Part shown: positions 46,350 through 47,515 of the stretch, in pieces
Position numbering within the stretch: the stretch's first letter is position 1
Layout of the letters: the number at the start of each line of letters is the position of its first letter
From: Halonotius aquaticus
Lineage (GTDB): Archaea > Halobacteriota > Halobacteria > Halobacteriales > Haloferacaceae
Assembly (NCBI RefSeq): GCF_003605575.1
Contig: NZ_QKNY01000006.1
Span: forward strand, 1 to 64,000
Direction: 5' to 3'
DNA: 64,000 nucleotides
The notes under the pieces: generated by a model
Told to the model about the DNA's origin: nothing
Seen by the model: the letters and a program-made list of their open reading frames with translations, nothing else
The model's database searches: none
Program-made: the position numbers and the translations under genes

Positions 46350-46403
46350 CGACGGACGCTACTCGCCCTGCTCTCCTGGCTTGATCCCCGACACTTATTA
46401 TCG

Positions 46404-46432
46404 TGTAAACGACACAGGTGATCGTGGTTTAC
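46404..46432 (+). promoter_or_regulatory. BirA-type biotin operator over the bioB start
   Basis: TGTAAAC at 46404-46410 and GTTTAC at 46427-46432, an inverted pair separated by 16 nt, match the BirA consensus TGTAAACC-N14/15-GGTTTACA (known for bacterial and some archaeal biotin operons). It overlaps the candidate TATA (cttatta, 46394-46400) downstream region and the start codon itself, so binding would block initiation on a leaderless message. The spacing matches to the base when counted from the conserved hexamers. Confidence 0.65.
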
Positions 46433-47515
46433 GAGACAGGAAACCGAACCATCGACGACGCTGTCGCCCGCGTTCTCGACGGCGACCAGATCGACCGCAC
46501 TGACGCCATCGCGCTGTTGGCCCAGCCGGTCGACGATCTCGCGGCGGCGGCCGACACCGTGCGGGCGACCCTCGGCGACGGCACCGTCGACGCCTGCAGC
46601 ATCGTCAACGCGAAAGCCGGCAACTGCGCTGAGGACTGCGGCTTTTGTGCCCAATCGGCACACTTCGATACCGGCATCGAGACCCACGGCTTCCTCGATC
46701 CCGAGGAAATCTTAGCGGCCGCCAAACGCGCCGAAGCCGACGGCGCACAGCGGTTCGGCATCGTGGTCGCCGAGAAAGGCGTGAGCAAAGAAAGGCGACC
46801 CGAGGAGTGGGCCGATGTCCTCCGTGCGGTTCGACTGGTTCGCGATGAAACCGATGTCGAAATCGACGCCAGTCTCGGGCTGCTCACACAGGCGGAAGCC
46901 GATATCCTCGCCGACGAAGGACTCAATCACTACAATCACAACATCGAGACCTCACCGCGGTACTTTGATGAGATCGTCTCGACGCACTCCTTTGAGGATC
47001 GCCTCAAGACACTCCGCCGCGCGAAGAACGCTGGGATGGATCTCTGTGCCGGCGTCATCCTGGGGATGGGTGAAACACCCGCTGACCGTGTTGACGCCGC
47101 GCTCGAACTCCGAAAGATCGGTGTCTCCTCGCTGCCGGTCAACATTTTGAACCCGATTGAGGGGACGCCGCTCGGCGACCGCGAGTCGGCAGCGATCTCG
47201 AAAACTGATCTCATCAAAACCATCGCTGTCTACCGACTGCTCCACCCGACCGCCCGCGTTCGACTGACGGGTGGCCGCGAGGTTAATCTCGCCGAGGATG
47301 AACAACACTGGCCTTTCGAGGCCGGTGCCGACGGCCTGCTGACCGGCGACTATCTCACGACCGGCGGGCAGGATGCCGCAACCGATATCGAGGTTATCGA
47401 AGACGCCGGCCTTGCGCCCAACACGGCAGTCAACGAGTTCGATCCTGAGCGCGTCAAAGCAAACGCCAACCGCGATGGTGCGGACGCCGCCATCGAATCG
47501 CGTGCTGACGACTAA
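46424..47515 (+). CDS. bioB: Biotin synthase
   Basis: 363-aa radical SAM enzyme that inserts sulfur into dethiobiotin. C68-x3-C72-x2-C75 (NCAEDCGFC) binds the 4Fe-4S cluster; further family blocks (FGIVVAEKGVSKE, GLNHYNHNIETSPRY, VNILNPIEGTPL, LTGGREVNL) confirm BioB. Start at GTG 46424, giving MVYETGN; a GTG at 46418 is also in frame. A TATA at about 46397 suggests a leaderless message. Other bio genes are not in the window. Converges directly on the enoyl-CoA hydratase gene. Confidence 0.96.
   Translation: MVYETGNRTIDDAVARVLDGDQIDRTDAIALLAQPVDDLAAAADTVRATLGDGTVDACSIVNAKAGNCAEDCGFCAQSAHFDTGIETHGFLDPEEILAAAKRAEADGAQRFGIVVAEKGVSKERRPEEWADVLRAVRLVRDETDVEIDASLGLLTQAEADILADEGLNHYNHNIETSPRYFDEIVSTHSFEDRLKTLRRAKNAGMDLCAGVILGMGETPADRVDAALELRKIGVSSLPVNILNPIEGTPLGDRESAAISKTDLIKTIAVYRLLHPTARVRLTGGREVNLAEDEQHWPFEAGADGLLTGDYLTTGGQDAATDIEVIEDAGLAPNTAVNEFDPERVKANANRDGADAAIESRADD

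Follow-up and report, generated by a model that had tools for sequence, protein, structure and literature searches.

The biotin synthase gene bioB of Halonotius aquaticus carries at its start an inverted repeat which is very probably an operator of the biotin repressor BirA. As judged from sequence, biotin-loaded BirA would bind this element and a second copy upstream of bioY, and would repress both genes.

An inverted repeat at the start of bioB

Direct reading of the sequence places TGTAAAC at 46404–46410 and GTTTAC at 46427–46432 of the window, the 64-kb stretch of DNA analysed here. The two halves are separated by 16 nt, so the pair, its spacing and its coordinates (46404–46432) had been given correctly in the original prediction. 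The letters of the site read, in order, TTATTATCG TGTAAAC GACACAGGTGATCGTG GTTTAC GAGACAGG; rewritten in the published BirA notation, the site is GTGTAAACG-[N14]-GGTTTACGA at 46403–46434. The left half-site, GTGTAAAC (46403–46410, forward strand, as for all features of this locus), lies at −21 to −14 from the bioB start and corresponds to TCGTMAAC in the class consensus and to TTGTAAAC in bacteria. The right half-site, GTTTACGA (46427–46434, +4 to +11), codes for Val2 and Tyr3 and reaches two bases into the Glu4 codon, its GTTTAC being codons 2–3 of bioB. The 16-nt spacer (46411–46426) contains the GTG start codon as well as the predicted start of transcription.

The gene downstream of the site (46424–47515, 363 aa) was identified as bioB by its matches to the Radical_SAM (PF04055) and BATS (PF06968) domains. 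Its start codon is most plausibly GTG 46424, which immediately precedes the right half-site: ATG or GTG occupies this position in relatives, and TTAT is found at −29 to −26. An alternative upstream start, GTG 46418, is unsupported by the alignment of relatives. The core promoter (46389–46398), consisting of a BRE-like CGACA and the TATA-like TTAT, was recognised by column conservation over 81 bioB loci and by the haloarchaeal motifs TTWT (TATA) and CGAAA (BRE) cited in a Haloferax start-site study (PMC4983044). A T at −28 is present in all 81 loci, as part of a TTWT box at −29 to −26. Because of this box, and because 72% of the protein-coding transcripts of Haloferax volcanii are leaderless (PMC4983044), the bioB message is likely to be leaderless as well. 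GTG is the start codon in 72 of the 81 bioB genes, compared with a GUG share of 6% in the leaderless transcripts of Haloferax (PMC4983044), and is possibly a weak start retained on purpose.

The exact pattern TGTAAAC-N16-GTTTAC matches once in the window and never in 100 dinucleotide shuffles. When up to one mismatch is allowed, GTAAAC-N16-GTTTAC is found at two places in the 2.47-Mb genome, the bioB start and upstream of bioY, and the reversed pattern has no match across the genome at the same tolerance.

Conservation in haloarchaeal bioB promoters

The half-sites were then followed through related bioB promoters, as the original prediction had suggested. We compared 81 bioB loci (80 relatives fetched by protein similarity, plus the window) in an alignment anchored on the start codon. 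The pair is conserved at the same place in 81 of 81 promoters, including a few variants of one base or one spacing step, although these sequences are related by descent and the counts are not independent. GTMAAC or GTTAAC, followed by N16-GTTTAC(GA), occupies the fixed place in 78 of them, and one-step variants are found in the others. The commonest halves are GTCAAC/GTTTAC (n = 55) and GTAAAC/GTTTAC (n = 18); rarer forms are GTTAAC (n = 4), GACAAC (n = 2), a right-hand GTTCAC (n = 1) and a 15-nt spacing with GTTGAC (n = 1). Upstream of −39 the alignment shows background variation, which is followed by four conserved blocks: the BRE, the TATA box, GTMAAC (−19 to −14) and GTTTACGA (+4 to +11).

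The pattern GTMAAC-N16-GTTKAC has 72 matches in the 854 kb surrounding the 80 bioB genes, and all 72 lie at the bioB start. When the spacing was varied from 8 to 30 nt over the same 854 kb, a 15-nt spacing was found once, at bioB, and other spacings three times, elsewhere. Chance as the origin of the pair is ruled out by the shuffles, the genome-wide counts and the reversed-pattern controls; the pair at bioB is a functional-looking operator.

The bioY site and a wider predicted regulon

The genome's other site is located at C18:125741, where CGTAAACCAATAGATTAAATCAGGTTGACG lies just 5′ of bioY, which is followed by a gene for an ABC-type ATPase. In H. aquaticus, near-exact sites occur only at bioB and bioY. 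A search of this genome, which has bioB, gave no bioF, and synthesis may be limited to the conversion of dethiobiotin or a like precursor taken up from outside.

Across the class, the strict pattern CGTMAAC-N16-GTTKACG occurs in 140 of 194 genomes and its reversed form in two of the 194. The strict sites inspected are nearly all upstream of bioB or bioY, with few others. The relaxed pattern GTNAAC-N16-GTTNAC is too loose for genome-wide use, its reversed control often scoring as high, and sites were therefore judged at the bioY promoter. Haloarchaeal bioY promoters in general have the site: in a sample read directly, mostly from genomes without a strict match, the majority show the pair with minor departures from the motif, in some cases with 15-nt spacing. 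The bioY operator usually ends about 14 nt upstream of the start codon, its spacer is AT-rich at the expected position of the TATA box, and both half-sites are upstream of the predicted transcription start. The geometry of the operator thus differs between bioB and bioY.

Some sites depart from this picture. The bioY promoters of genus g30 (L188 and L190) have an intact left half, GTAAACCA as right half and a gene start further downstream; this operator is altered or decaying. A strict third site is found in three species (L144 and L145 of genus g35, and G059, C2:2445302), 39 nt upstream of a gene without evident link to biotin, the 60-residue N-terminal part of which gave no Pfam match. In one further genome (L164; G171, C1:382300-387600, reverse strand, nt 889–916) a perfect GTCAAC-N16-GTTGAC is located about 95 nt upstream of a biotin carboxylase gene, which is followed by birA. 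This may reflect possible autoregulation of the carboxylase–birA cluster, or chance.

BirA as the probable reader of the operator

BirA is the sole member of the biotin ligase family encoded by the H. aquaticus genome. The N-terminal winged helix on which the predicted circuit depends is present in this protein, HTH_11 scoring 46.9 bits against a Pfam cut-off of 25. The ligase domains are also recognised (BPL_LplA_LipB, 58.9 bits; BPL_C, 40 bits), the GRGR motif is visible in the sequence, and the protein matches BirA of S. aureus and E. coli along almost its entire length. In its domains it thus agrees with the group II (repressor-type) biotin protein ligases. An N-terminal winged helix-turn-helix is seen in the BirA of relatives, too.

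BirA is present in 184 of the 194 genomes of the class. The ten genomes without it are also without bioB, bioY and the strict site, consistent with a haloarchaeon that has neither biotin ligase nor BioY (PMC3102087). As bioB and bioY are missing there as well, so that co-loss is expected, these genomes are uninformative as to the reader and were dropped as a control.

Genus g17 is more telling. Its BirA has no recognisable HTH in any of the four genomes, the protein beginning right before the ligase domain. The operator is absent from the three bioY promoters read in the genus, the best match having 4–5 mismatches of 16, which is the background level, while bioY itself is intact. In two of these promoters CGTAACGTT stands where the left half-site used to be and is apparently what remains of it after decay. 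The joint loss of helix and site, which counts as one evolutionary event, suggests that it is the helix of BirA which reads the operator. In the g17 proteins (L176, L177, L211 and L213) the ligase motif GRGR has also changed to PRGR, which may mean a relaxed co-repressor or dimer function.

The palindrome might instead be read by a different winged-helix regulator of the biotin genes, BirA being merely the ligase. Haloarchaea have many small winged-helix regulators, a fold also shared by some relatives of HTH_11, NiaR among them; nevertheless we consider this quite improbable, since the half-sites and their spacing match the BirA consensus, and since complete loss of the site at bioY, among the promoters read, is confined to g17, where alone a BirA without HTH was seen. 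The original assignment to BirA is very probably right, with bioY as a member of the regulon and the losses in g17 as independent support.

Constraint on the first codons of bioB at the DNA level

Since BioB protein identity falls to 66% among the 81 sequences, synonymous sites had room to drift. Among the 83 conserved four-fold codon columns that of Val2 varies least, with GTT in 81 of 81 genes; GTT makes up 5.9% of the other Val codons in the same genes. Tyr3 is replaced by Asp, Asn or His in several genes which retain a GTTNAC half-site. Asp with GTTGAC is found in Halalkalicoccus (L078), G171 (L165) and G128 (L168); the distantly related G021 (L167) has ATGGTTAACGAG at the bioB start, downstream of GTCAAC-N16.

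These observations leave hardly any room for the explanation that the right half-site merely encodes a conserved N-terminus (Val-Tyr-Glu), with the left half as a promoter element. It is true that most BioB proteins in the class share a conserved VYET, but such coding would account neither for a rare Val codon in every gene nor for a half-site that stays where Tyr is replaced (L078, L165, L167 and L168), and the same pair upstream of bioY has no coding role there. Conservation of the coding sequence alone is rejected by codon entropy and by the amino acid exchanges that keep the motif. By this comparison of codons, the conservation at the bioB start lies in the DNA.

Proposed mechanism

E. coli BirA carrying biotinyl-5′-AMP dimerises and binds an inverted repeat (PMC6391492). 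We infer that haloarchaeal BirA binds its operators likewise in dependence on biotinyl-AMP, and represses, at bioB, a promoter whose transcript is predicted to be leaderless. That the repeat instead works as RNA, its halves pairing, as they could in principle, to form a hairpin that controls the bioB message, is scarcely credible: the left half lies outside the transcript by its predicted start; with GTCAAC/GTTTAC, the halves of 55 of the 81 loci, one of the six pairs within the stem would be mismatched, and compensating changes are not seen; and at bioY both halves are upstream of the predicted start.

With BirA as repressor, plentiful biotin would lead to a BirA–biotinyl-5′-AMP dimer which places its two winged helices on TCGTMAAC and GTTKACGA, the centres of which, 22 bp apart, would be separated by about two helical turns. 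The bioB operator would be filled once the carboxylases are biotinylated. At bioB the dimer would cover about −21 to +11 of the presumably leaderless promoter, just 3′ of the TATA box, and would block loading, opening or escape of RNA polymerase. As the TATA box is just upstream of the operator, the block may affect the polymerase rather than TBP. A steric block of leaderless transcription, as originally proposed for bioB, is suggested here by the geometry. The two bioY half-sites lie on either side of the TATA box, so that TBP/TFB would be excluded. When biotin is scarce, BirA would be engaged as ligase and monomeric, and both bioB and bioY would be on.

More tentatively, one repressor may work in two modes, blocking TBP/TFB at bioY and the polymerase, with TBP/TFB bound, at bioB, and the bioB operator, lying in codons 2–4, may have dictated the N-terminus of BioB class-wide. 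We regard this combination as possible, though somewhat short of probable.

Comparison with known BirA operators

The kind of circuit is already known. Rodionov, Mironov and Gelfand reportedly proposed a BirA regulon and BirA sites in Archaea in 2002 (Genome Res 12:1507), and are said to have described a correlation between HTH and sites as well. The prediction of an archaeal variant of a bacterial circuit is supported by the sequence evidence, though a variant of this circuit in Archaea had been put forward before. A report of a haloarchaeal biotin operator was not found in the literature searched. To a proposal of this kind, the present analysis adds the sites at bioB and bioY throughout Halobacteria, their two different geometries, a half-site embedded at the start of a gene predicted to be leaderless, the codon constraint and the loss of HTH and site within the class.

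The regulon would be a simple archaeal one, in which a single bifunctional sensor acts through one operator on two genes, in a group that includes the genetically tractable Haloferax. It would represent a bacterial-type vitamin repressor adapted to a promoter with TATA box and BRE and to leaderless initiation, with an operator that is partly coding. The positions of the operators at bioB and bioY offer a way to ask which step of initiation an archaeal repressor blocks, and g17, the genus without BirA helix and sites, provides a ready natural control.

The bacterial BirA consensus is TTGTAAACC-[N14/15]-GGTTTACAA, attributed to Rodionov et al. 2002 (PMC545781). Haloarchaeal sites share with bacterial BirA operators of the E. 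coli bioO type the core GTMAAC/GTTKAC, with N16 between the six-mers equal to the published N14, the targets bioB and bioY, and a bifunctional BirA with an N-terminal winged helix-turn-helix. The proposed match to this consensus holds for the core half-sites and the spacing; the outer bases vary. These are G T on the left and G A on the right in the window site, TC...GA in the class consensus and TT...AA in bacteria, the outermost pair of haloarchaeal sites being mostly C/G instead of T/A. Variation at the ends is also known from Geobacter, where TTGTcAACC/GGTTgACgA variants include a 'gA' end (PMC545781).

The canonical TTGTMAAC-N16-GTTKACAA is found upstream of bioY in two non-haloarchaeal genomes of the Halobacteriota (L202 and L203), which thus retain the bacterial outer T/A pair, whereas haloarchaeal sites do not. 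In another non-haloarchaeal genus of this phylum (g93, L204–L209), a canonical TTGTAAAC-N16-GTTTACAA is located about 45 nt upstream of a gene which by eye resembles sodium:solute symporters, and which is a candidate for a BirA-controlled transporter of biotin or a precursor.

A site close to the translation start has been described for bioB of D. vulgaris (position 6; PMC545781). Haloarchaeal sites differ from the bacterial ones in being located on TATA/BRE promoters and, throughout the class, in having one half-site within codons 2–3 of a gene predicted to be leaderless.
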